64,000 bases of DNA from Deltaproteobacteria bacterium (GTDB lineage: Bacteria > Myxococcota_A > UBA796 > SXON01). Shown piece after piece: positions 6,420 to 63,018 of this stretch. A program made the position numbers and the translations under genes. The first letter of the stretch is position 1. The number at the start of each line of letters is the position of its first letter. The DNA is taken from contig BJHF01000001.1 of NCBI GenBank assembly GCA_014191855.1, positions 62,001-126,000 on the forward strand. Direction: 5' to 3'. The notes beneath the pieces are model-generated. The model had not been told where the DNA came from, made no database searches, and worked only from the letters and a program-made list of their open reading frames with translations.

Positions 6420-7154
6420 AGTCGGGCGCGGTCGCAAGCGGGACGCGCCCGCCGCGACGATACACGTGTCGCGACACCGCGGCGCCGTCGCGGATTCACG
6501 GCGTTCGTTCGTAGCGCGCCGGCGCCGCGCTCCCCACGCGAGCGGAAACGGCGCGTCGAGCTCTCCTTGTGCCTGGGGTGAGCGCTCACCCACCTCGCAA
6601 GGAGAGGAAACGGGCCGTCCGCGACGCGCCGGCGCCGCGCTCCCCACGCGAGCGGAAACGGCGCGTCGAGCTCTCCTTGGGCCGGGGGTGAGCGCTCACC
6701 CACCTCGCAAAGAGAGGAAACGGGTCGTGGTCGGCGTACTCGTGTCGCGACACGGCGACGCGGGCGCGGATTCGCGGCGTTCGTTCGTGGCGCGCCGGCG
6801 TCGCGCTGCCCTTACCGAGCGGAAACGGCGCGTCGAGCTCTCCTTGTGCCTGGGGTGAGCGCTCACCCACCTCGCAAAGAGAGGAAACGGGTCGTGGTCG
6901 GCGTACTCGTGTCGCGACACGGCGACACGCGCGCGGATTCGCGGCGTTCGTTCGTGGCGCGCCGGGGGCGCGCACCCCGCGCGTGCGGAAACGGCGCGTC
7001 GAGCTCTCCTTGTGCCTGGGGTGAGCGCTCACCCACCTCGCAAAGAGAGGAAACGGGTCGTGGTCGGCGTGTTGTTGTCGCGACACCTGGTCGCAACGTG
7101 CGCGATGTCGCCCTCCCCTTCGCGCCTTCGCGTGACCCTTCTCGACCTCCTCCT
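6420..7154. repeat. Non-coding island: about 3.5 tandem units of ~166 bp carrying a 46-nt hairpin
   Basis: This stretch holds no credible gene; frames through it translate the same Arg/Ala-rich repeat. A 46-nt hairpin with outer arms CTCTCCTTG and CAAGGAGAG (or CAAAGAGAG) and the core palindrome GTGAGCGCTCAC occurs at 6561-6606, 6671-6716, 6838-6883 and 7004-7049. Start-to-start spacings are 110, 167 and 166 bp, so the first unit has lost about 57 bp. Full units also carry TGTCGCGACA (6467, 6743, 6910, 7076) and the segment GCGGCGTTCGTTCGTGGCG. The hairpin is the same family as the array at 30105-30651, but no transposase is present here. Confidence 0.85.
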
Positions 7155-7215
7155 CCGACGCGATGCGCCTCCGAAGCCCGCCTGACGAAGGCGAAATATG
7201 CCGCGCGCATCGCCC
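7155..7215 (-). repeat. REP-like hairpin, reverse copy (right edge of island 1)
   Basis: CGCGATGCGCC at the left pairs with GCGCGCATCGCCC at the right, with CGCCTGACGAAGGCG inside. On the complementary strand it matches the family consensus, so it is inverted relative to the copy at 6362-6419. It ends 14 bp before the prepilin peptidase stop. Confidence 0.65.
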
Positions 7216-7229
7216 AAATTTCCCCGCGC

Positions 7230-30000: not shown

Positions 30001-30718
30001 GGGTGGGGGACTAACTCGGGGAGGGTGGCGGAGCGGGCGCAACGCGAGCCGGACGCGGCTGGCGGCGGTGGGCGGTGCGGCGGCGGGCGGCTCGCGTTGC
30101 GCAGCTCCCGTTGCCGGGCGGCTGAGGCGCCACCCCTGCCGCAAGGAGAGCGAGCGGGGCCGTTTTCGCCCCGACCAACGCCGCGCCGCTCTCCTTGCGC
30201 GGGGGGTGAGCCGTCACCCATGGCGCAAGGAGAGCCGGCGGGGCCGTTTTCGCCCCGACCAACGCCGCGCCGCTCTCCTTGCGCGGGGGGTGAGCCGTCA
30301 CCCTTGGGGCAAGGAGAGCGAGCGGGGCGGTTCACCAGGCTCGGCGGCAGGTTTTCTCTCTTTGGGCGGGGGGTGAGGCGTCACCCATGGCGCAAGGAGA
30401 GCGCCCGGGGCGGTTCACCAGGCTCGGCGGCAGGTTTTCTCTCTTTGGGCGGGGGGTGAGGCGTCACCCATGGCGCAAGGAGAGCCGGCGGGGCCGTTTT
30501 CGCCCCGACCAACGCCGCGCCGCTCTCCTTTCGCGGGGGGTGAGGCGTCACCCTTGGGGCAAGGAGAGCGGGCGGGGCCGTTTGCGTCGCTCGGCGGCGG
30601 GGTTTCTCTCTTTGGGCGGGGGGTGAGCCGCCACCCCCGCCGCAAGGAGAGCGCCCCGGGGGGCTCCTCCGTCCCGCCGGGCCCGTCGCCCTGCCTTTCC
30701 GCCCCTTCGCGCCGCCGC
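30001..30718. repeat. Tandem array of seven 46-nt hairpins, period 83-84 bp, next to a RAYT gene
   Basis: No credible gene lies here. The 46-nt hairpin has arms CTCTCCTTG(CGC) and (GCG)CAAGGAGAG around GGGTGAGC-GTCACCC. Copies are at 30105-30150 (degenerate), 30189-30234, 30273-30318, 30356-30401, 30439-30484, 30523-30568 and 30606-30651. The anchor GCAAGGAGAG recurs at 30141, 30225, 30309, 30392, 30475, 30559 and 30642. Spacers of about 37 bp are of few types: one with GGGGCCGTTTTCGCCCC (three copies), one with GGTTCACCAGGCTCGGCGG (two copies) and one hybrid. The array ends 67 bp before the RAYT stop. Hairpin repeats beside a RAYT are the signature of REP/BIME clusters. Confidence 0.9.
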
Positions 30719-31549
30719 TCACCGAGGCAGCACCTTTTTCCGCTCAGACCACGGCGTCCGAGCGGGCTCGTCTCCGAACGGGAGGGCGTCGAGCAGCGGG
30801 CGGGCGACGCGCACCTGGAGCTGGAGGCGCAGCGCCGCGACGCACAGCGCGTTCGCGGGCTCCACGACGCGCTTTCGGAACACCGTGCTGGGACCGATCT
30901 CCAGGATCGCGGCCGTTTCCTCGGCGCCCAGGCCGACATCGGCCGCGAGCTGACACGCCGCAGTGATCACCCTTCGCACGTCCCCGTGTCGCGACCGAAG
31001 ATCCGGACGCGCGACCGCGGCCGCTGCGGCGTCGAGGAGGTGGGCGCGCACGATCTCCGGCGTCGCGGCCACGAGCGGAAGGTCGATCCAGCCCGCGAGC
31101 TTGCGAAGGTGGGTGCCGGCCACGCGCGGCAAATGATCTCGGACCGCGCCGACCGTCGTGACGGCGACCCGGCGGGCGCCCAGCAGGTCGGGCAGGTTGC
31201 TGTTCTCGCGCCAGGGGTCGGGTACAACGCCGTGCTTCTCGTCGTTGCAGACGACGTACTCGAACGCGGCGCGCAGGTGGTCGGCGTCCTGGATCGGGGT
31301 GATGGCGGCGGGCGGGAGCGCGCCCGCCGTCGCAGCCGCGAGCGCCAGACCGAGCGCCTGCGCCAGTCGCCCCGCGCGATCGCGGTCGGCGAGCACGAGC
31401 ACGTGCACATGGGTGTCGGAGATGTGGAAGGCGAGCAATGTGCCGCCGACCACCCGGACGATCACCCGCACGAGCCGCCGGACCGTGTAGCGATCGCGCG
31501 GGAACGGACTGCGACGGGGGCTATGAAACACGAGCTGCCAGGCATCCAT
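30719..31549 (-). CDS. REP-associated tyrosine transposase (RAYT) 1
   Basis: A 276-aa single-strand DNA transposase of the IS200/IS605 Y1 type. The HUH motif is D-T-H47-V-H49 in FHISDTHVHVLVLAD; the usual form is PNHVH. The catalytic tyrosine is Tyr98 in FEYVVCNDEKHG, the position of the Y-x-x-x-NPVKHG motif in RAYTs. The C-terminal region (about 190-245) looks like an HTH, with AADVGLGAEETAAILEIGPS. RAYTs recognise and cut REP hairpins. The gene lies directly beside the 46-nt hairpin array, presumably its substrate. Three TCCGTCACCT motifs lie upstream (31618-31660). The second H is retained, so it may be active. Confidence 0.78.
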   Translation of the reverse strand: MDAWQLVFHSPRRSPFPRDRYTVRRLVRVIVRVVGGTLLAFHISDTHVHVLVLADRDRAGRLAQALGLALAAATAGALPPAAITPIQDADHLRAAFEYVVCNDEKHGVVPDPWRENSNLPDLLGARRVAVTTVGAVRDHLPRVAGTHLRKLAGWIDLPLVAATPEIVRAHLLDAAAAAVARPDLRSRHGDVRRVITAACQLAADVGLGAEETAAILEIGPSTVFRKRVVEPANALCVAALRLQLQVRVARPLLDALPFGDEPARTPWSERKKVLPR

Positions 31550-31610
31550 CGCCCGGAAGACTGCAATCGCCGTGCCAACGGATAAACCTTGGTTTTGTGC
31601 GGGCCGGGCG

Positions 31611-31669
31611 TCGGATGTCCGTCACCTCCGGCGCGACATCCGTCACCTGTTCCGTCACCTGTCGCGACA
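31611..31669 (-). promoter_or_regulatory. Repeated motif upstream of RAYT 1
   Basis: Read on the plus strand, TCCGTCACCT occurs at 31618-31627, 31639-31648 and 31651-31660, followed by TGTCGCGACA at 31660-31669. They lie 69-120 bp upstream of the RAYT start. The same TCCGTCACCT occurs in a palindrome upstream of the second RAYT (48695-48729), which suggests shared recognition, either regulatory or by the transposase itself. Confidence 0.55.
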
Positions 31670-43870: not shown

Positions 43871-46741
43871 ATGGAACCAGCCGTCGATCCCTTCCACCCG
43901 GTTTTGCGTGTTTTGGAGCGCTATCGCTCCGATGTGCATCACCTGCGCGCCCCGGCTCCCGACGGCACCACGCTCGCGGTGCAGCAGCACCTCGGTCGCG
44001 AGCTCCCGACCTCCCTCAAGGGTTTTCTCGCACGGTGGAACGGCGCAACGCTGTTCCGTGGCGCCCTGCGGGTGCGCGGCGTGGCCGATCTTGCGCCTCC
44101 CGACGCCGAGCATCCCGACGTGATCCTGTTCGCCGACGGTCCGCGCGACGAAGATCGCTGGGCGTTCGCCGAAACCGAGTTCGGCCACCACTTCGGCCGC
44201 TGGAATGGCGAGCGCCTCGTCCCGCTCCACGAACACTTTAGCCGCTGGCTCATCGCGCAAACGCGCATCCTCGACGAGAACGTGCGCGAAGAGGCTGACC
44301 AGCTCGCCGTTCGCCTCGAGGTCGATCCGAACTGCGGACTGTTGTGGTTCCTCCAGGGCGAAGCGTTGCTTGAAGCGGGCAACGCCGTGGAGGCCACCGC
44401 CGCCTATCGCCGCGCATCGGCGCTCCATCCGGAGCACACCGGTGCCTGGCAGCGCCTCGGGGAATCGCTGCTCGGGTCTGATGAAAGCCAGGCCCGCGGC
44501 GCGTTCCTCATGGCCTGGCGCTCCACGCGCTTGCCCCTCGCCTACCCCGGTGCTCCGGCAGCGTCGTCCGACCTCGTACGCCTGCTCGAAGCCCAGTTCC
44601 CCGTCGGCGACGTGGGCTGGGAGCGTGAGCTGGCCGACTTCCTCGCCGAGCGGGTGCCGAACATCCGGCACCCCGGGGGCGACATCGCGATCGCGGCGGT
44701 GCTGGCCTTGGTTCGCGTGCGCCTCCACCACGGCGACCGCGCCGGCGCGCGCGACGCGCTCGCCTCCCTCCGCGACCGCGCCACGGGTTGGGCGGTGCCT
44801 CCAGACCTCTCCCCTGTGCTGTTCGCGCTGGCCGGGCTGCACACCGATCTGGGTGACCACGATGCCGCCGAGGACGTGATCCGCCGCATTCGTCGAAGTG
44901 AAGATCCGATGATCCGTGCGCGTGCCGAGCTCGCTCTCGCGCGGGTCGCGCTGTACCGTGAGGAGCCCTGGGTGGACGAGATGGTCCGGGGTGCGCTTGC
45001 GGTGCTCAAGAACCCCGCCGACCGGTGCGAGGGGTATCTCCTGCTCGCCGAGCATAGCCGCGGTCAGGATGGTGTATCAGTAGAAGCTGCAGCCAAGCTG
45101 GCAGCACAGGTCGGTGACACATCGCTGGACGCCCGCGTTGCGTTGGTGCGGGGCGATCTCTGCCGCGCGCGCGGCGACCTCGCCGGCGCCCACCACGCCT
45201 GGCTCGCCTGCAAAGGTGACCCTGAGACGGAGCTCCGCGCGGAAGTGCGCATCGGCGACCTGATGGAGGATCCCATCGACGCCCTGCCTCATTACACCGA
45301 GGCAATCAACGGCTACAAACGCCTCCAGTTGCCGATCCGCGAGGCCTGGGCCCGCCTGAGGCTGGTTCGGTGCGGGGATGCGTCGCAGGCCGTCGAAGCC
45401 GCCCACGAGTTCAAGGCCGCCGGCCTCGCCGCCGGTGTCGCGACCGCAGATGCACTCGCCGGGCGCCCCGGCCACAGCCTCGAATGGCACCTCAACCTGA
45501 GCGCGGAGGCCGCGCGCGAACGCTACGACGCCCAACGCATGCGCCCGCCCTGGACGCGCGCCGACGCGGATCGCCCCGAGCGCCGGTTGCTCGCCCATCG
45601 TTCCGCGGTCGCTAACGCCGACGAGCGCGTGGTCTCGGTGCTCGCCGCCGACATCGCGAACGAATTGCAGCGCCTCCAGGCCAGCGACGGGCGCGCGCGC
45701 GACCCGTCCACCATGCGCTTCATCGCCGGCGTCGACCTCCTCGCCGGCCACCCCTCCTGGGCCGCGGCCCAGGTATTCCTCGCGTTGCTCATGGAAGGAG
45801 TGCGCCAGCCCAATGCGGAGCGCGGCCTCGTCGGCGCCCTCGCCCGCTCGCCGAACATGACGCTGGTCGATGCGTTGGTCCGCTCCCTCAACACCGACAC
45901 GGAGCCGACCCGGGTCGCGCTCATCGCCGAAACCCTCGGTTGGCGGCGCCAGACGGAGGCAATCCCGCGGCTCCGGGTGTTGGCCGAGTCGGGCTCCACG
46001 CCGGTGCGTCGCGCGGCGATCACGGCGCTCGGCCGCATCGGCGACGCCGAGTCCATCGAGATCATCTTCCCTGCGTTGGAAGTGCCGGAGCTGGCGGAGA
46101 CGGCCTCCACCGCGCTGCTGCTCCTCGGCGAGTGGCAAGGCGTGGACTTCTTCGCCCAGGCCCTCGCCCGCGGCGAACGTTGGCTCACCCAGTCGCCAGG
46201 CGAGATCGTCGGCCGCTACGGCGGACCGGCGTACTTCCTGCTGCTCATGCGCACGTGTGAGATGGAGGGTCCGAGCGGCATCGGCAGCCTCGCCGGGCTC
46301 GGCCTGCTCGGCAACCTGCGCGCGGTTCCCCGCCTCATCGAGAGTGTAGGCAGTCGCGACCCGCAGCGCCAGGCCGTCGCAAACGCGGCGTTGGAGGTTA
46401 TTACTGGCCGTCGCGAAGACGTCGAGGACGCCCACCCCAAGCAGAAGTGGGCCGACTGGTGGGCCGAGCACGGTCCCGACTTCGACGAGCGAATTCGCCA
46501 CCGCGAAGGCCGGCCCCTCACGATCCGCTCGCTCATCGAGCGCCTCGCACACGACGACTTCGGCACGCGCCAGGGCGCCTATGACGAGCTCGTCATCGCC
46601 ACCGGCGAGCGCCTCCCCTTCGACGCCGACGGCCCGTGGCGGGTGCAATTGGCCCACCGCGCCGCCTGGGAGCGCTGGTGGGCCGACAACGCCCACGAGC
46701 TTCCGAACACCGGCTGGTGTTTCCATGGCTCACCGACTTAG
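43871..46741 (+). CDS. SUKH-like N-terminus with TPR and HEAT repeats
   Basis: A 956-aa cytoplasmic protein with no signal. Residues about 20-130 resemble the SMI1/KNR4 (SUKH) fold: VQQHLGRELPTSLKGFLARWNGATLF, FADGPRDEDRWAFAE and HFGRWNGERLVPLHEHFSRWL. Residues about 140-560 are TPR-like helix pairs (for example LLWFLQGEALLEAGNAVEATAAYRRASALHP). From about 620 to 920 are HEAT-like repeats (AIPRLRVLAESGSTPVRRAAITALGRIGD, RAVPRLIESVGSRDPQRQAVANAALEVITG). SUKH domains often belong to immunity proteins against polymorphic toxins. No toxin gene is adjacent, so immunity is speculative. Confidence 0.75.
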   Translation: MEPAVDPFHPVLRVLERYRSDVHHLRAPAPDGTTLAVQQHLGRELPTSLKGFLARWNGATLFRGALRVRGVADLAPPDAEHPDVILFADGPRDEDRWAFAETEFGHHFGRWNGERLVPLHEHFSRWLIAQTRILDENVREEADQLAVRLEVDPNCGLLWFLQGEALLEAGNAVEATAAYRRASALHPEHTGAWQRLGESLLGSDESQARGAFLMAWRSTRLPLAYPGAPAASSDLVRLLEAQFPVGDVGWERELADFLAERVPNIRHPGGDIAIAAVLALVRVRLHHGDRAGARDALASLRDRATGWAVPPDLSPVLFALAGLHTDLGDHDAAEDVIRRIRRSEDPMIRARAELALARVALYREEPWVDEMVRGALAVLKNPADRCEGYLLLAEHSRGQDGVSVEAAAKLAAQVGDTSLDARVALVRGDLCRARGDLAGAHHAWLACKGDPETELRAEVRIGDLMEDPIDALPHYTEAINGYKRLQLPIREAWARLRLVRCGDASQAVEAAHEFKAAGLAAGVATADALAGRPGHSLEWHLNLSAEAARERYDAQRMRPPWTRADADRPERRLLAHRSAVANADERVVSVLAADIANELQRLQASDGRARDPSTMRFIAGVDLLAGHPSWAAAQVFLALLMEGVRQPNAERGLVGALARSPNMTLVDALVRSLNTDTEPTRVALIAETLGWRRQTEAIPRLRVLAESGSTPVRRAAITALGRIGDAESIEIIFPALEVPELAETASTALLLLGEWQGVDFFAQALARGERWLTQSPGEIVGRYGGPAYFLLLMRTCEMEGPSGIGSLAGLGLLGNLRAVPRLIESVGSRDPQRQAVANAALEVITGRREDVEDAHPKQKWADWWAEHGPDFDERIRHREGRPLTIRSLIERLAHDDFGTRQGAYDELVIATGERLPFDADGPWRVQLAHRAAWERWWADNAHELPNTGWCFHGSPT

Positions 46742-46755
46742 GCGTTGAAGGTCGT

Positions 46756-47211
46756 TTAGTCTTCTCCGGGATGGCGGGCGATACATCGCCATGTATCACC
46801 ACGCTTCTCCATCACGTACACCATCGCGTTCTGCTTCCGCGGCGTCGGTTCGAGGTCGAAGGCGTTTTCCAGAAACTCCTGTGTCGTGTGATGGGCGACG
46901 ATGGCGGCGCGTGTACCTTGGTTCTCAGCGAGGAATTCCAGACGGGCCAGCGAGGCAGGGCCGCTCTCGATCCGCAGGATCGGCGGCTTGGTGTCGGCAC
47001 ACTGGCCTTGAATGATGGCGGCCGTCTCCCGAGTACGATGCCAGGGCGTGCTCAGCAACACGCTTGGTGAAAAGCCGTTGTTTCGCAGCCACGCCCCCGT
47101 ACGCTGGGCCATGGCCACGCCGTGGTCAGACAGGTGCTCGTCGCGATCGGCCTTGTTGCGAATGCGCTTTCCGTGGCGGATGAAGATGAGGATGTGGCCG
47201 TCGGGGATCAT
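46756..47211 (-). CDS. SixA-like histidine phosphatase 1
   Basis: A 151-aa member of the histidine phosphatase superfamily, starting at ATG 47211. The catalytic RHG is in LIFIRHGKR (His13), a downstream Arg is in STPWHRTRETAA, and the second catalytic His is in AAIVAHHTTQEF (His107 or His108). Length is like SixA, which dephosphorylates phosphohistidine on phosphotransfer proteins. It is a close paralogue of the gene at 47701-48162 and shares the C-terminus GDTWRCIARHPGE. A repeat island separates the two. Confidence 0.85.
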   Translation of the reverse strand: MIPDGHILIFIRHGKRIRNKADRDEHLSDHGVAMAQRTGAWLRNNGFSPSVLLSTPWHRTRETAAIIQGQCADTKPPILRIESGPASLARLEFLAENQGTRAAIVAHHTTQEFLENAFDLEPTPRKQNAMVYVMEKRGDTWRCIARHPGED

Positions 47212-47297
47212 GGCGGGCTCCAGGCTGGGGGACGAGGGTACTACGGACCGCGTGGGCGGATGTGGACCGCGCGGGTGGAAAGTGGTGAGGCGGGCGG

Positions 47298-47352
47298 GGG
47301 CGACGCCGGGGCCAGGTGGCGGGGCCAAGGTGGGTAGGACGGCGTCGCGGGG
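47298..47352 (+). repeat. REP-like hairpin, forward copy
   Basis: GGGCGACGCC pairs with GGCGTCGCGGGG, and the loop has GGGGCCAAGGTGGGTAGGAC, identical in style to the copies at 48209 and 50725. Confidence 0.7.
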
Positions 47353-47424
47353 GAGTCGCGGTGGGCGACGCGTGTTCGCGGCGCAGAAATGTGTCGCGAC
47401 ATGCGACACGCCGGCGCCCGGCGG

Positions 47425-47662
47425 AGTCGAGTCGGCCTGCTTGGCCGCGAGGAAGAGTCGAGCCGGGCTGTTTGGCGCTGTGGGCGCCCCGGCGCAGTCC
47501 GACGGCCAAAAAACGTAGCTTCGCCGGGTGGCGAGGGTGCGTCGTGGACGGGTGTGGCGGACCCACGGGCTCTGGCGCGCTCGAAACGGGGGTCCGCGCG
47601 CCTCCGTAGGTCAAACAGTTCGACTCGACTCCGCGCGTCGGCCAGCGCGGGGGACTCGACTT
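47425..47662. repeat. 239-bp inverted-repeat element, copy A
   Basis: Arms of about 50 bp (47425-47474 and 47612-47662) each hold two GTCGAGT boxes about 30 bp apart and CTGTTTG innermost; by hand alignment they agree at about 35 of 50 positions. The core has AAAAAACGTAGCTTCGCC. Copy B (48381) is nearly identical over about 220 bp. Orientation matches copies B, C and D. Confidence 0.8.
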
Positions 47663-47700
47663 TGGGGACGCCGCGGCGCCGAAGGTGCGCGGGGAGGGGC

Positions 47701-48162
47701 TCAGCTTTCGCCGGCGTGGCGGGCGACACATTGCCATGTATCACCGCCCTTCTGGAGCACGAACCCCGCGCCGTTGTCGTCGAGGTACTTGTCTGGTTTG
47801 CAGAAGGTCTTCACGATGAACTCGTGGCTCGTGTGGTGAGCGACAATCGCGGCGCCGCTCCCGTGTTTCTCTGCGAACGCCTCAAGCGTGTCTGCGGTGG
47901 GGCCGGCGGAGACCCTCGCCATCGGCAGAAGGCGGTGCTCGGGGCCGAGCCGCTCGCGGATGATCTCGGCCGTTTCCTGGGTGCGGCGTTTCTTCGTGTA
48001 GAGCAGCTTCGTGGGGATGTGGCCCCCCGCGCGGAGCCAGTCGCCGGCGCGTTCCGCCTGGGCGATCCCTCGTGGAATGAGTGGATCGAGGTCGTCGTCG
48101 GGGTGAACGCGGCCGCGCTTGCCGTGGCGGATGAAGATGAGAATGTGACCGTCGGGGACCAT
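47701..48162 (-). CDS. SixA-like histidine phosphatase 2
   Basis: A 153-aa paralogue of the gene at 46756-47211, starting at ATG 48162. It retains LIFIRHGKRGR (His13), the Arg-rich KKRRTQETAEII segment and AAIVAHHTSHEF (His109 or His110). The end GDTWQCVARHAGES matches the paralogue. It probably acts as a phosphohistidine or phosphoester phosphatase. Its placement between two copies of the same repeat unit suggests that the duplication of the phosphatase and the repeat may be linked, which is inference. Confidence 0.85.
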   Translation of the reverse strand: MVPDGHILIFIRHGKRGRVHPDDDLDPLIPRGIAQAERAGDWLRAGGHIPTKLLYTKKRRTQETAEIIRERLGPEHRLLPMARVSAGPTADTLEAFAEKHGSGAAIVAHHTSHEFIVKTFCKPDKYLDDNGAGFVLQKGGDTWQCVARHAGES

Positions 48163-48208
48163 GCGCGCTCCGTGGGGGTGCATTGTACTACGGGAGGGCG
48201 GGTGGATT

Positions 48209-48267
48209 GTGGACGACGCCTCATGCCTGATCCGCGGCGCCGGGGTGGGTAGGACGGCGTCGCGGGG
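48209..48267 (+). repeat. REP-like hairpin, forward copy (left end of RAYT 2 unit)
   Basis: GACGACGCC pairs with GGCGTCGCGGGG, and the loop has CGGGGTGGGTAGGAC. It matches the other forward copies and opens the unit whose reverse copy is at 49638-49698. Confidence 0.65.
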
Positions 48268-48380
48268 TCCGTTTCGGTCGGCGACGCGCCTTCGGGGTGG
48301 GCGACGCGGTTTCGCGGTGGGTGACTCGGCCGCAGTCGCGTGAAGTGATGTCGCGACAGTCGGCGCGACTCTTAACGGAG

Positions 48381-48619
48381 AGTCGAGTGCCCCTGCCTGG
48401 CCGCGAGGAGGAGTCGAGCCGGGCTGTTTGGCGCGGTCGGCGCCCCGGCGCAGTCCGACGGCCAAAAAACGTAGCTTCGCCGGTGTGGCGAGGGTGCGTC
48501 GTGGACGGGTGTGGCGGACCCACGGGCTCTGGCGCGCTCGAAACGGGGGTCCGCGCGCCTCCGTAGGTCAAACAGTTCGACTCGACTCCGCGCGTCGGCC
48601 AGCGCGGGGGACTCGACTT
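48381..48619. repeat. 239-bp inverted-repeat element, copy B
   Basis: The arms are 48381-48430 and 48569-48619. It is nearly identical to copy A over about 220 bp, including CCAAAAAACGTAGCTTCGCC and TAGGTCAAACAGTTCGACTC. TGTCGCGACA lies 32 bp upstream of the left arm, as in copies A and C. Confidence 0.8.
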
Positions 48620-48694
48620 CGGCGACGGGCGGCCCTCGCGGTCGGCGGCGAGCGCGCCCGCGCCTCCGCGCTCTCCCGCGATCGACGGAGCCCT

Positions 48695-48729
48695 GTCGGA
48701 CATCCGTCACCTACTGACGGACGTCCGAC
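48695..48729 (+). promoter_or_regulatory. 35-bp palindrome upstream of RAYT 2
   Basis: GTCGGACATCCGTCA at the left and TGACGGACGTCCGAC at the right are inverted 15-mers with one mismatch, separated by CCTAC. The palindrome contains GACATCCGTCACCT, the motif that also precedes RAYT 1. It lies 61 bp before the RAYT start and could be an operator for autoregulation or a transposase binding site. Confidence 0.65.
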
Positions 48730-48789
48730 ACCCCTCACGCGAAAAACATAGGTTGTATCGTTGGCGCGGCGCTTGCAGAGCCGGCACGC

Positions 48790-49629
48790 ATGCTCCACCT
48801 CATCGCCTGGGCCGCGCCCGGAACCCTGCTCTTTCGAACCTGGGCCGAGGGCGTCGCCTGCCTGGAGGTGTTCGCGGCTGCGTTCCCCGACCTCGACGCG
48901 CTCCTCGTGATGCCGGACCACGTTCATATCAAGGGCGACTGGCCCAAGGCCGAGGTGCGCTTGGCTCGCGCGGAGACGGCGTTCGCGCGACGGCGCTTCG
49001 CGATGCGGGGGAAGGAGGGTCCTCGCGGCGCGTTCGCGCGTCACCCGGAGCCCACCCGCATCGTGAACAAGGATCATGAGCGCCGAACACGGCGTTACAT
49101 CTACCTCAACCCGGTTCGCGACGAGATCGTGGAGTGCCCGCTCGCGTGGCCGCTCTCCACGTACCGCGACCGCCTTGGCCTCGCCGCGTTCCCGCTCGTG
49201 CCGAAGGCGAACGACCCCGAGCGTTTGCATCGATACGTATCGACGGATGCCGACTCCCAGCTTGGGGGGACGCCGTTCCCGCAGCTTCGAGCGAGGGAGA
49301 GCTCGATCGACGACGTGATCGACGCCGTGAGCGCGATCACGCGTGTCGGCCCAGAAGCGCTCACCCGTGGCGGACGCGCACGAACGCTCGCGGTGGAGAC
49401 GGCGTGGATGGCGGGGATTCGCGACACTGGCTTGCTTGCGAAGGTATTCCAGTTGAGCCCGCGCGCCGTGCGAACCGCCGTTTCGGAGCTGCCCGACTCT
49501 GTGTACGACCCTGTGCCCGCCGCGGTCGAGGCCTGCCTCCGCGTGTTGGGAGATCCCCGCTTCGAACGCCTTGACGCCGGCGGCCTGCTCCGGCGCGCGG
49601 ACTGGGCGAAGTTGCGCCATCTACGCTGA
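48790..49629 (+). CDS. REP-associated tyrosine transposase (RAYT) 2
   Basis: A 279-aa Y1-type transposase. The HUH motif is MPDHVHIKGD with His44 and His46, and the catalytic tyrosine is Tyr103 or Tyr105 in RRYIYLNPVRDEIVE, the classic RAYT YIHLNPVR motif. This is followed by WPLSTYRDRLG and a C-terminal HTH-like region (AWMAGIRDTGLLAKVFQLSP). All catalytic positions look intact. The gene lies inside a unit bounded by inverted REP-like hairpins. It is only weakly similar to RAYT 1, indicating a second lineage. Confidence 0.9.
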   Translation: MLHLIAWAAPGTLLFRTWAEGVACLEVFAAAFPDLDALLVMPDHVHIKGDWPKAEVRLARAETAFARRRFAMRGKEGPRGAFARHPEPTRIVNKDHERRTRRYIYLNPVRDEIVECPLAWPLSTYRDRLGLAAFPLVPKANDPERLHRYVSTDADSQLGGTPFPQLRARESSIDDVIDAVSAITRVGPEALTRGGRARTLAVETAWMAGIRDTGLLAKVFQLSPRAVRTAVSELPDSVYDPVPAAVEACLRVLGDPRFERLDAGGLLRRADWAKLRHLR

Positions 49630-49637
49630 AGTCTGGA

Positions 49638-49698
49638 GGCGCCGCGATGCGCCGCGACGCTCGCCTGACCCGGGCGAACGGGCCCCTGCGCATCGCCC
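49638..49698 (-). repeat. REP-like hairpin, reverse copy (right end of RAYT 2 unit)
   Basis: GGCGCCGCGATGCGCC at the left pairs with GCGCATCGCCC at the right, with CGCCTGACCCGGGCGAACG inside. On the complement it matches the forward copies. It begins 8 bp after the RAYT stop. Confidence 0.7.
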
Positions 49699-49768
49699 GA
49701 ATGAACTTTCTTTCGATTTCCGGTACAGTTCGGCGCGCCTCCTGCGTAGGGGGCTTCGAGGTGAGCTC

Positions 49769-50710
49769 ATGCGCGTGGTCGTCGTCCGTTATTGTCTGCC
49801 GTCTGATGAAGCGATTGGCGCCCTGGTCGAGGCGGGGAGGTGGCTGTGTGCGCAGGGCGTGAAACCCGGGCTTGTGACTCGCGAATCGTTGCCACTGGTC
49901 GCCGACATGGAGTCGCGCGTCCTCGCGTGGTCCGACAAGTGGACCCCGCGCATGGGGGGGCTTCCCGTGCTGGAGAACGCCGCCGCTTTCCTGCCTTTGA
50001 TCAAGAAGCTCCGACGCCGGTACGAACGGGAGCTGGCGAAGGGGAAGGTGCCGGCGGGTGCGGGGGAGGACATCGTGTGCTTCGTGTCGGCCGCCACGGT
50101 GGATGCGCTCGCGCCGGTGCTGGGCGACGGCGTTCCGCGGGAGAACCTCGCGCCGATCTGGGTTTTGGAGGCCACGGACGGGCGATGGCGAGTAAGCACG
50201 GTGTGGCCGGGGCGCGCCCCTGGCGATCTCGCGCCGATGACCGTGCCAACGGCACGAACTCCGAGGGACGCCTCGGCCGGGAAGGCCAAGGGACGGCCGG
50301 CCCCGGACCGCCCGTGGGAGGAATACCTGGCGTCCGCCGAGGAGGCGCTCGTCGTCAGCGACGCACCTTTGCTCGATGCGCAGGGGCACCGACTGCCCGG
50401 GCGGCCGATCGTGGGCTTGCAAATCGACGTTCAGTGGGGCGAGCACGTTTGCTTGTTCACGCGCCTGGAGATCTTGAAGGTAGAAGAGGGACAGTTCTGG
50501 GTTGAGCGCATCGCCGGCGGGGAATACCGGTTCGGCGTGGAACAGTGGGATTCGTGGCTGCGACGCCGCTTACTGGAGGGAATTGTGACCGTTCACCTTC
50601 CCGAGTGCGACATCGGGTGGTGCGCGGGGTGTGACGGCGGCGTGATTGGCAAGGAGCCGTATTTGGGGGAGGACGAGGCGATTGTGGCGGCGCGCGGGCG
50701 CCGGCGGTGA
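49769..50710 (+). CDS. Hypothetical protein with C-terminal cysteine cluster
   Basis: A 313-aa protein from ATG 49769, with GAGG upstream at good spacing. No family is recognised. The N-terminal half is alpha/beta (MRVVVVRYCLPSDEAIGALV, IVCFVSAATVDAL); a Lys/Pro/Ala linker follows, and the C-terminal part is beta-rich with a Cys cluster (CDIGWCAGC). The gene lies between two RAYT-related repeat units and could be cargo or a bystander; codon use is like the surroundings. Confidence 0.65.
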   Translation: MRVVVVRYCLPSDEAIGALVEAGRWLCAQGVKPGLVTRESLPLVADMESRVLAWSDKWTPRMGGLPVLENAAAFLPLIKKLRRRYERELAKGKVPAGAGEDIVCFVSAATVDALAPVLGDGVPRENLAPIWVLEATDGRWRVSTVWPGRAPGDLAPMTVPTARTPRDASAGKAKGRPAPDRPWEEYLASAEEALVVSDAPLLDAQGHRLPGRPIVGLQIDVQWGEHVCLFTRLEILKVEEGQFWVERIAGGEYRFGVEQWDSWLRRRLLEGIVTVHLPECDIGWCAGCDGGVIGKEPYLGEDEAIVAARGRRR

Positions 50711-50724
50711 GCGTGGCGAGATCG

Positions 50725-50796
50725 GGGCGACGCCTCAGCTTGCCGCACTTCGCGGCCCAGTCCCGGGGCCAGCGTGGGTAGGACGGCGTCGCGAGG
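50725..50796 (+). repeat. REP-like hairpin, forward copy
   Basis: GGGCGACGCC pairs with GGCGTCGCGAGG. The loop contains GCTTGCCGCACTTCGCGGCC, shared with the copy at 29408, and GGGGCCAGCGTGGGTAGGAC. Confidence 0.7.
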
Positions 50797-50891
50797 GCTG
50801 TCGCGGCCGGAGACGTGCGGTTCGCGGCCGGCGACAGGGTCGCTGCGGCGCGAAATACGGTCGCGACAGGCGGCGCGGCGACGCGCGGCGG

Positions 50892-51130
50892 AGTCGAGTC
50901 CGCCTGCTTGGCCGCGAGGAAGAGTCGAGTCAGGCTGTTTGGCGTACCGGCCGGGACCGAGCGCGGCGGCGGCGGAAAAACGAAGCTTTGCTCGTTCGCG
51001 AGGCGGCGTCGCCGACCGGGGTGCCGGCCCGGCGCGCGCCGGCGCACCCCTGAGGGCACCCGCGCGCGCCGGCTTCGGCTGAACAGCGCGACTCGACTCG
51101 GCGCGTCGGCCAACGAGCTGGACTCGACGT
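50892..51130. repeat. 239-bp inverted-repeat element, copy C
   Basis: The same architecture as copies A and B with a diverged centre: left arm from 50892 with two GTCGAGT boxes and CAGGCTGTTTGG, AAAAACGAAGCTTTGC in the core, and right arm (51081-51130) with GACTCGACTCGG and GGACTCGAC. Confidence 0.75.
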
Positions 51131-51153
51131 TTGCGGCGAGCGGTTCGCGGTCG

Positions 51154-51213
51154 GGCGCCGCGATGCTGAGCGACGCCTGCCTGACCTGGGCGAACGGGCT
51201 CGGAGCATCGCCC
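51154..51213 (-). repeat. REP-like hairpin, reverse copy
   Basis: GGCGCCGCGATGC at the left and GCATCGCCC at the right enclose GCCTGACCTGGGCGAACGGG, which closely matches the reverse copy at 49638-49698. Confidence 0.7.
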
Positions 51214-51252
51214 TGATCGTGCCTCCTCTGAGGGGGGGCGGAGTGTGGTAGC

Positions 51253-52173
51253 GTGCGCGCTCCGGGAGACGACGTGTTCAAGCCCACCTACACCCTCACG
51301 CCCCGCTTCCTCCGCCAGATGATCCAGATCGAGCGCGGATGCGGCTTTCTCGAAGCCATCCAGCTCGACCCGTCGCGAGCGGCGGCGCTCCAGAAGATGT
51401 TCCGCGTGGACGACGCGCTCTCCAGCGTCCAGATCGAGGGATCGTCGCTCACCCGGATCCGCGCGGCGCAGCTCGCGGACGATGCGCTGGAGGTTGCCAA
51501 CGAGAGCGAGCAGGAATTCTTGAATTACTACTCGGCGTTCAACGCGATCGACGACCTGCGCGGGCAGCGCGACTACGCGTTTTCGGCGCGGGACCTACTC
51601 AACTTGCATGGCATCCTCGTGCAGGGCGTGCGCGGCGAACACTACGCCGGGCGGTTTCGCGACGGGTCAGTGGAAGTCGGCGATCAGCAGGGCGCCAAGC
51701 GTGTTGTGCATCACCTCCCGCCGGAGGCGGAGGAGGTGCGCGGACTTGTGGACGAGCTGATGGACTGGGTGGAGGGGGCGAAGGACAAAGGGAAAAAGAA
51801 GGGGCATGCGGATGTGTGGGAGCACCCGGTCGCGGTTGCAGCGATCGCCCAGCACCGCTTCGTTTGGATTCATCCCTTCTTCGATGGGAACGGGCGTACG
51901 GCCCGTATGTTCACGACCGCGCTTTTGTTCCAGCGCAGGTACGACTTCAAGTACCTGTTCGATTTGTCGTCGTATTACAATCGCGATCGGGACAAATACT
52001 ATGCGGCGCTGCGGACGGCGGATGCGACCGGGGATTACACGGCGTGGATCGAGTATTTTGCGGGTGGGCTGGCGTTGCAGATCAGGGCGGCGGTGGAGCG
52101 GGGTAGGGGGGTGGCTATGGGGGTGGATATGAGTGCGGTTGGCGCGGCCGAGGCGGGCGCCGACGCGGAGTGA
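51253..52173 (+). CDS. Fic/DOC-family protein (AMPylator-like)
   Basis: A 306-aa protein from GTG 51253 (GTG 51274 is an alternative). The Fic catalytic motif is complete: HPFFDGNGRTAR at 207-218, with His207 as the base and the anion loop intact. An N-terminal inhibitory-type helix is present (SSVQIEGSSLT, about 58-68, with the Glu of the S/T-x3-E-G/N class II motif), so activity is probably autoinhibited. Fic proteins transfer AMP or related groups to Tyr, Ser or Thr of target proteins. The gene is the first after the repeat-rich gap and lies upstream of the helicase-nuclease pair with 221 bp between. Confidence 0.92.
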   Translation: MRAPGDDVFKPTYTLTPRFLRQMIQIERGCGFLEAIQLDPSRAAALQKMFRVDDALSSVQIEGSSLTRIRAAQLADDALEVANESEQEFLNYYSAFNAIDDLRGQRDYAFSARDLLNLHGILVQGVRGEHYAGRFRDGSVEVGDQQGAKRVVHHLPPEAEEVRGLVDELMDWVEGAKDKGKKKGHADVWEHPVAVAAIAQHRFVWIHPFFDGNGRTARMFTTALLFQRRYDFKYLFDLSSYYNRDRDKYYAALRTADATGDYTAWIEYFAGGLALQIRAAVERGRGVAMGVDMSAVGAAEAGADAE

Positions 52174-62810: not shown

Positions 62811-62863
62811 CCGCCGCCGCCCCCACCGCGCCTACGCCCCATTGTCGCGACAGCCGTGCCGGT

Positions 62864-62923
62864 GGCGCCGCGATGGCCCCCAATCCCCGCCTGAGGAAGA
62901 CGAATGGGCCGCGGCCATCGCCC
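62864..62923 (-). repeat. REP-like hairpin, reverse copy
   Basis: GGCGCCGCGATGGCC at the left and GGCCATCGCCC at the right enclose CGCCTGAGGAAGACG. It closes the island opened by the forward copy at 62241. Confidence 0.65.
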
Positions 62924-63018
62924 GAAAGGGGCCTGGCTGCCGCCGCGCCCTCGCCCCGGGGCTTCCCTCGGCTCTGCGACCTCTCCGGCCAACCGGCGCG
63001 GGTGTTGCGCCCCCCACC

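Follow-up and report, generated by a model that had tools for sequence, protein, structure and literature searches.

A RAYT gene amid dispersed palindromic repeats, and a putative sigma54-type promoter module that it has in common with comEC, ssb and radC

Results

An intact RAYT gene and its surroundings

The stretch of DNA analyzed here (64,000 nucleotides, hereafter the window) comes from contig 1 of a draft genome of 6.95 Mb in 329 contigs. Its features, compiled in Table 1, comprise a gene for a REP-associated tyrosine transposase (RAYT), copies of two repeats that we term elements A and B, a proposed promoter module, and a second HUH gene (HUH2) some distance upstream.

Table 1. Features of the window (positions are counted from its first nucleotide)
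Feature	Position	Strand	Remarks
Array after the HUH2 gene	30099-30666	.	About six 84-bp units; long hairpin (CTCTCCTTGCGC...GCGCAAGGAGAG)
HUH2-family gene	30719-31549	-	276 aa; motifs HISDTHVHVLVL...YVVCNDEKHG; same promoter module
-24/-12 box of HUH2, TTGGCACGGCGATTGC	31563-31578	-	Perfect box
Promoter palindrome of HUH2, CGGACATCCG	31612-31621	-	Precedes the box by 33 bp, like that of the RAYT gene
Element A, second copy	47425-47661	.	96% identical; in tandem duplication with phosphatase gene
Forward hairpin of the earlier note	48209-48267	+	Partly inside a block occurring three times locally
TGTCGCGACA	48349-48358	+	About 20 bp before element A; exact in five of the nine near-full A copies
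Element A	48381-48618	.	238 bp; AGTCGAGTC-type units as a doublet, then a core containing AAAACGTAGCTT, then the doublet inverted; member of a dispersed family
Twin palindrome, proposed activator site	48694-48730	+	CGGACATCCG (48697-48706) and CGGACGTCCG (48718-48727), 21 bp apart
Sigma54-type -24/-12 box, TTGGCGCGGCGCTTGC	48761-48776	+	ATG 13 nt further on
RAYT gene	48790-49629	+	Intact ORF; 279 aa; HUH-Y1 protein
Element B	49638-49698	+	Hairpin with covarying stem; dispersed family; 8 bp past the RAYT stop
Gene next downstream of RAYT	49769-50710		313 aa; no Pfam match
Element A, third copy	50892-51129	.	73% identical; element B shortly after
Element B, second copy	51154-51213	+	Follows the third A copy

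An earlier note on this DNA had recognized an intact RAYT gene with HUH and tyrosine motifs, and this is borne out by the open reading frame and by the conservation of the motif residues. We aligned the protein with 28 homologues from 23 genomes, its own included, leaving out a 477-aa frame (L044) and a cut sequence (L063). In these 29 sequences H44, H46 and P108 are invariant, and Y103 and N107 are conserved in at least 90%; the near-invariant Y103 is the first tyrosine of the YIYLNP motif. The protein matched the NCBIfam model NF047646 (REP_Tyr_transpos) with an E-value of 8.3e-9, but its score of 35.5 bits lies below the curated cut-off of 80. No Pfam family matched it, and a search of the genome with the Pfam family Y1_Tnp gave matches on contigs 23, 90 and 86 and none at this gene. 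Using Foldseek with an AlphaFold2 model of the protein (pLDDT 94.7), we found as best match 4er8, a RAYT bound to a REP hairpin (E 5e-4), which was the sole PDB chain matched at E ≤ 0.001. The C-terminal extension gave a weak match to the DnaA-DBD structure 3pvp (rank 22, E 0.7, probability 0.95). By its motifs and its modeled structure, the gene is a real RAYT (TnpA-REP), a class 2 HUH-Y1 enzyme. Two more clear homologues, 39-40% identical, are encoded in the same genome, where a third match is a fragment; diverged homologues are present in 22 of 57 relatives.

In a search for an empty site, the gene next downstream found no match in 20 other genomes and was seen in its own genome only. On the other side, His_Phos_1 (SixA-like) genes are tandemly duplicated (46759-47214 and 47704-48165, minus strand), with element A upstream of each.

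Elements A and B are dispersed repeats

Scoring 40 of 119 candidates in the genome, we found nine near-full copies of element A and at least 32 matches of any length. When aligned, the nine copies end sharply (AGTCGAGTC...GACTCGACT) and agree in their core (GCGaAAAACGtAGCTT), with each arm made of a doublet of units; their flanks differ. Element A is thus a dispersed element made of inversely oriented repeats, as a REPIN is, and three of the nine near-full copies lie within one 3.7-kb stretch around the RAYT gene. Its arms fold like shuffled sequences (z -0.6 and -0.8). The tetranucleotide GT(A/G)G is present inside two of the three window copies and absent from the third; GGGGWSAS is present in none of the three. 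The inverted-repeat core reported in the earlier note is this complete dispersed 238-bp element and not an end of something larger.

Element B was matched at least 40 times in the genome on scoring 40 of 176 candidates; 27 of these matches were used to assess covariation. In these 27 dispersed copies, 97.5% of the cells of the 9-bp outer stem are paired and six of its nine pairs exhibit compensatory changes; over the whole structure 95.2% of the cells pair, compared to 87.0% in shuffles, and none of 500 shuffles reached the observed value. The hairpin noticed earlier 8 bp past the RAYT stop hence belongs to a real covarying family, although this single copy folds no better than chance (z -0.84). 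No GT(A/G)G was seen at the foot of element B, a search of positions 46000-52000 against Rfam gave no match, and judged by crude ORF calls the position of element B relative to genes reveals no clear preference. The hairpin, of about 60 nt, is also found in the window at 7156-7219 and 62861-62926.

Both elements stand side by side without a RAYT gene at 50892-51213, on contig 134 (with a partial A) and, judged by eye, on contig 64. We also inspected 31 RAYT loci for composite inverted repeats, calling one where its score was 2 or more above the highest of 12 shuffles. Such a repeat, 155-243 bp in length, lies beside the gene at 15 of these loci, and by eye its sequence differs between genomes; the remaining 16, which include four where the sequence on one side was of insufficient length, showed no strong one. 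The 650 bp downstream of the RAYT gene in the window contain no significant composite repeat. The paralogues on contigs 72 and 11 have a common repeat type by eye, with the contig 11 copy not being significant alone.

The ten-base palindrome TGTCGCGACA is over-represented in the window, with eight occurrences versus 0.15 expected. These lie at 6467, 6743, 6910, 7076, 31660, 47392, 48349 and 62843, each near repeats or the HUH2 gene, and the first four are part of a tandem array of related palindromes (6461-7086). The same palindrome was present in 29 of 241 loci examined, many of them from the same genome.

The RAYT gene and its neighboring repeats probably do not form a mobile unit

According to the earlier note, the 1.49 kb from a forward hairpin through the RAYT gene to the hairpin behind it represented a transposase and its REP ends that may have moved as one unit. 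This claim is unsupported. Searches of the genome with element A and element B (40 of 119 and 40 of 176 candidates scored), the palindrome and the protein found no second copy, so that the several near-identical copies with the same ends typical of IS200/IS605 elements were not seen; the ends are unrelated; and A and B also occur without a RAYT. Neither is the gene flanked by two inverted REPs of one family: with A on the left and the unrelated B on the right, it has no matching ends. The best inverted pair bracketing it measures 16 nt at 81% identity, and long terminal inverted repeats were thus not found. The proposed forward hairpin folds no better than chance (z -1.0; 29 of 200 shuffles at least equal), and among the loci of the genome that were compared its sequence recurs only in two adjacent blocks.

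The earlier note had named one conserved RAYT locus in relatives as the finding that would speak against its unit. Comparing about 1.4 kb on either side of the gene at 31 RAYT loci, we found such conservation in two pairs of genomes but not elsewhere. G007 and G010 are 85.5% identical over 1298 bp upstream (the G010 contig stops within the gene), and G008 and G010 are 95.9% identical over 1310 bp upstream and 85.5% over 559 bp downstream; in these pairs the RAYT consequently behaves like a resident gene. What had been seen, then, was a real RAYT among real dispersed palindromic repeats, which is a known arrangement of the REPtron/TIRtron type, but joint movement as a mobile unit is not supported.

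A putative sigma54-type promoter precedes the RAYT and HUH2 genes

Ahead of the RAYT gene, twin CGGACRTCCG sites are followed by 33 bp, a -24/-12 box and the ATG. The twin palindrome, another feature of the earlier note, folds far from chance (z -7.6; 0 of 200 shuffles). Many RAYT homologues display a similar order, with one or two GACGGACGTCCG-like palindromes, then a GTTGGCACG-N4-TTGC-like box and the ATG about 13 nt on. Since the box resembles that of sigma54 (RpoN) promoters (TGGCACG-N4-TTGC) and the genome contains one rpoN gene, we propose that the module is a sigma54-type promoter; it would differ from known ones in its proposed activator site, which is unusually close to the box, usually 33 bp away. 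At sigma54 promoters the transcript begins some 12 nt past the GC of the box, and the RAYT mRNA would accordingly be almost leaderless. At three ssb genes with the module described below, about 45 nt separate box and start, unlike at the RAYT gene.

A search of the genome with the palindrome gave 16 matches, and the genes downstream are not all RAYTs; they include comEC, radC, the second HUH-like family and several secreted or uncharacterized proteins. The combined pattern of palindrome and box with 26-38 free bases, drawn like the pattern used for the family below from sites of this genome already seen, matched eight times, always over 61 bp, and its reversed control did not match at all. The spacing is not universal: the radC site of this genome spans 71 bp and was found only with a wider gap. 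We had also considered the palindrome as a REP end and set this aside. The same palindrome precedes ssb, radC and comEC, which makes it more likely to be a part of a promoter than the end of a transposon.

Within the window, neither boxes (six with at most two mismatches; 6.3 expected) nor palindromes (seven with at most one mismatch; 12.3 expected) are enriched; it is the pairing of the two, rather than either alone, that stands out. The second such pairing belongs to the HUH2 gene, whose product is 54-76% identical to three other HUH2 members. Its structural model is weak (pLDDT 59.8) and gave no match at E ≤ 0.001, with an unrelated regulator ranking first and 4er8 second (E 9e-3); that HUH2 is a Y1 enzyme is likely on this modeling, not proven. 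The hairpin of the 84-bp-unit array behind the gene is strong (z -7.2), and the array contains GGGGGTGAG, which fits the TIR motif GGGGWSAS. In G009, too, the HUH2 gene is followed by a related hairpin, which is absent after the HUH2 genes of contigs 55 and 186. With HUH2 and RAYT both behind the module and beside palindromic repeats, two kinds of HUH enzymes appear to share a promoter.

Genes that share the module

We searched 22 genomes of the family with the module pattern, allowing a gap of 24-54, and obtained 48 matches, from which manual merging left 42 distinct sites spread over 14 genomes; the reversed control pattern matched once. Behind these sites lie genes for SSB (6), RAYT (6), RadC (4), ComEC (2) and HUH2 (2), for small secreted (7), TPR-like (5) and Ser/Thr/Ala-rich (5) proteins, for alpha-amylase-like lipoproteins (2), and for one other secreted and one membrane protein; no gene fits the last site (G009:C1:553860), a probable chance match. 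Pfam matches confirmed all six SSB, four RadC, two ComEC and two alpha-amylase-like assignments, and the six RAYT sites coincide with matches of the RAYT homologue search in relatives. The other families were grouped by eye. Where the ORF chosen first was doubtful (seven cases), other frames were examined, which changed the assignment of four. Genes for DNA uptake and for single-stranded DNA (comEC, ssb, radC) thus appear under one putative module, as would be expected of a competence regulon. For ssb and radC the link comes from a single family; only two of the 22 genomes gave comEC with the pattern, and no comEA, comF or pilus genes were recognized behind the 42 sites. The secreted, TPR-like and alpha-amylase-like families have no known part in transformation.

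The promoter viewed from the genes

We scored the 5-50 nt before start codons with a fixed weighted -24/-12 score against 200 dinucleotide shuffles per locus. For RAYTs, 31 of 51 matches in relatives were used (the fragment L037 was excluded), and 24 of the 31 have a box at p ≤ 0.01 (27 at 0.05); these 24 span the families f1 to f5. Because the box had first been recognized on RAYT loci, this score is a count and not a blind test, and only comEC, dprA and the other genes of the relatives are independent. For comEC, a match was available in 51 genomes and yielded 39 loci, 38 of them testable (for L129 no candidate start was obtained); the starts of some may be misplaced because these loci sit at contig ends. 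A box was found before 15 of 38 at p ≤ 0.01 and before 23 at 0.05, in families f1, f3, f4 and f5; the comEC gene of the genome studied here reached p 0.015. At the 0.01 level, RAYTs of five families in one order have the box, as do comEC genes of four of these families; 7 of 31 RAYTs and 23 of 38 comEC genes fall short of that level. The dprA gene, scored for comparison, lies outside the putative regulon, with 0 of 24 loci significant at 0.01 and 2 at 0.05 (24 of 52 genomes).

Genomes differ in their version of the palindrome. Were RAYT and comEC under one regulator, the upstream region of a RAYT should best match that of the comEC gene of its own genome. This was the trend observed: for 20 RAYTs the mean rank of the own comEC was 8.2 of 38 (19.5 expected), and none of 20,000 permutations gave as low a value. 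The own comEC ranked first for eight and among the top three for 12 of the 20 RAYTs; it ranked fourth or worse for eight, and 12th or worse for seven of them (L040, L043, L044, L053, L054, L056, L059). Restricting the test to one RAYT per genome (15) gave p 2e-4. In a first run with 31 of the 39 comEC loci (p 5e-5; 1e-4 with one per genome), eight loci without a clear box or start had been omitted; as this could favor a shared promoter, we repeated the analysis with all 38, and the result holds. The dprA control (28 of 29 loci; TTG starts disallowed, unlike for comEC) gave a mean rank of 14.6 of 28 for 24 RAYTs (14.5 expected; p 0.53).

Discussion

The module, its usual spacing, the set of genes behind it and the resemblance of RAYT and comEC upstream regions within a genome can be read directly from the DNA. 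On this basis we consider it probable that the gene is a resident RAYT with a sigma54-type promoter common to genes for DNA uptake and single-stranded DNA, made when the cell takes up single strands. RpoN would read the -24/-12 box, and one candidate activator would bind the twin palindrome 33 bp upstream; the module, with a site that varies between genomes, precedes comEC, ssb, radC, HUH2 and other RAYTs as well. Enzymes behind such a promoter would be made together with the uptake machinery. The inducing state would be competence or DNA uptake because ComEC imports DNA as single strands, SSB coats these, and radC belongs to the late competence genes of pneumococcus. RAYTs act on single-stranded DNA, the form in which transformation delivers DNA to the cell; a RAYT made at that time would find its substrate there and may act in trans on small dispersed REP-type repeats, most likely element A.

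A wider proposal, which we put forward only tentatively and would not ourselves bet on, is that both HUH lineages, RAYT and HUH2, process incoming or recombining single-stranded DNA during transformation in this order, and that REP-type elements multiply or exchange then. If true, natural transformation would be what keeps RAYTs and REPs alive.

The shared promoter might instead serve a general starvation, stress or DNA-repair program, with ComEC working for nutrition and not for transformation. Such a program would accommodate the absence of dprA and the presence of the alpha-amylase-like, secreted and TPR-like proteins, and RadC and SSB would also fit repair; we nevertheless think it rather unlikely, since comEC, ssb and radC together are a typical late competence set and all occur, as does dprA, in the pneumococcal ComX list as far as the available part of that source goes (PMC6560143).

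We are about equally doubtful that A and B are ordinary intergenic repeats without functional connection to this RAYT. Element B is abundant enough for a chance adjacency to a gene, and about half of the RAYT loci showed no strong composite inverted repeat. Against this stand the clustering of near-full A copies around the RAYT gene, the loci that do have such a repeat beside the gene, and the repeat type common to the contig 72 and contig 11 paralogues, the last judged by eye. A RAYT together with its REPs or REPINs is termed a REPtron (Nunvar 2010, PMC2817692; Bertels and Rainey 2011, PMC3116915; Quentin 2018, PMC6006769), and the locus resembles one in its class 2 HUH-Y1 enzyme with the Y---NP motif, the diverged paralogues in one genome, and the dispersed repeats beside the gene with no sign of movement as a unit. 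It differs in the unlike repeats on the two sides of the RAYT, in that we saw no REP hairpin of the classic small kind, with GT(A/G)G at its foot, and in the sigma54-type promoter it would have in common with comEC, ssb and radC, which the available text of the REPtron literature does not mention.

With TIRtrons (TIRYTs; RAYT group 1, or subclass 2.1; PMC3733652; PMC6006769), as described in the available parts of these papers, the RAYT has in common a long C-terminal extension that may be DnaA-DBD-like, to judge from the weak match, and long inverted-repeat elements in place of small REPs; the motif in the HUH2 array fits as well. Element A, however, does not bracket the RAYT gene, and its window copies are without GGGGWSAS. 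It could be argued that the palindrome is itself a TIR of a RAYT/TIRYT element and that the sites at other genes are landed fragments of it. The palindrome folds strongly, the distance from module to ATG is fixed in many RAYTs, and TIRYT genes, according to the accessible part of PMC3733652, have long terminal repeats on both sides, some at a similar distance from the gene. We hold this to be very unlikely: the same few gene families follow the sites in different genomes, comEC has the box when tested from the side of the gene, and RAYT and comEC upstream sequences change together within a genome. That hairpin, A, RAYT and B are a single insertion element moving whole is hardly credible given its unrelated ends, the lack of a second copy, homologues in the genome of just 39-40% identity and flanks shared in two pairs of relatives, even though hairpin-A blocks and one RAYT-less hairpin-A-B block lie within about 3 kb, as though the RAYT had been inserted into or lost from one of them.

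RAYTs among repeats are a known arrangement; the putative promoter shared by the resident RAYT with comEC, ssb and radC is the new point. In Quentin 2018 (PMC6006769) the terms 'competence', 'natural transformation' and 'promoter' are absent, and 'transformation' appears once, as a route of gene transfer. Among the literature matches listed, a scope outside which fall most subscription journals and all preprints, none concerned a RAYT driven by a sigma54 or competence promoter. The finding bears on why bacteria keep RAYTs and when these act; the shared promoter offers a concrete condition under which REP movement can be sought and suggests a possible role of RAYTs in transformation. A palindrome near a RAYT that would otherwise be filed as a REP or TIR may be better read as the site of a regulator.

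The late competence regulon of pneumococcus (PMC6560143), in the available part of that account, likewise unites comEC, ssb and radC. It differs in using a ComX site where a sigma54-type box is proposed here, in including dprA, and in that the putative regulon described here contains REP-associated HUH enzymes, each with its own copy of the promoter. Genes of IS transposases (such as IS1167) are also raised in the accessible portion of the pneumococcal list, some of them marked as secondary.
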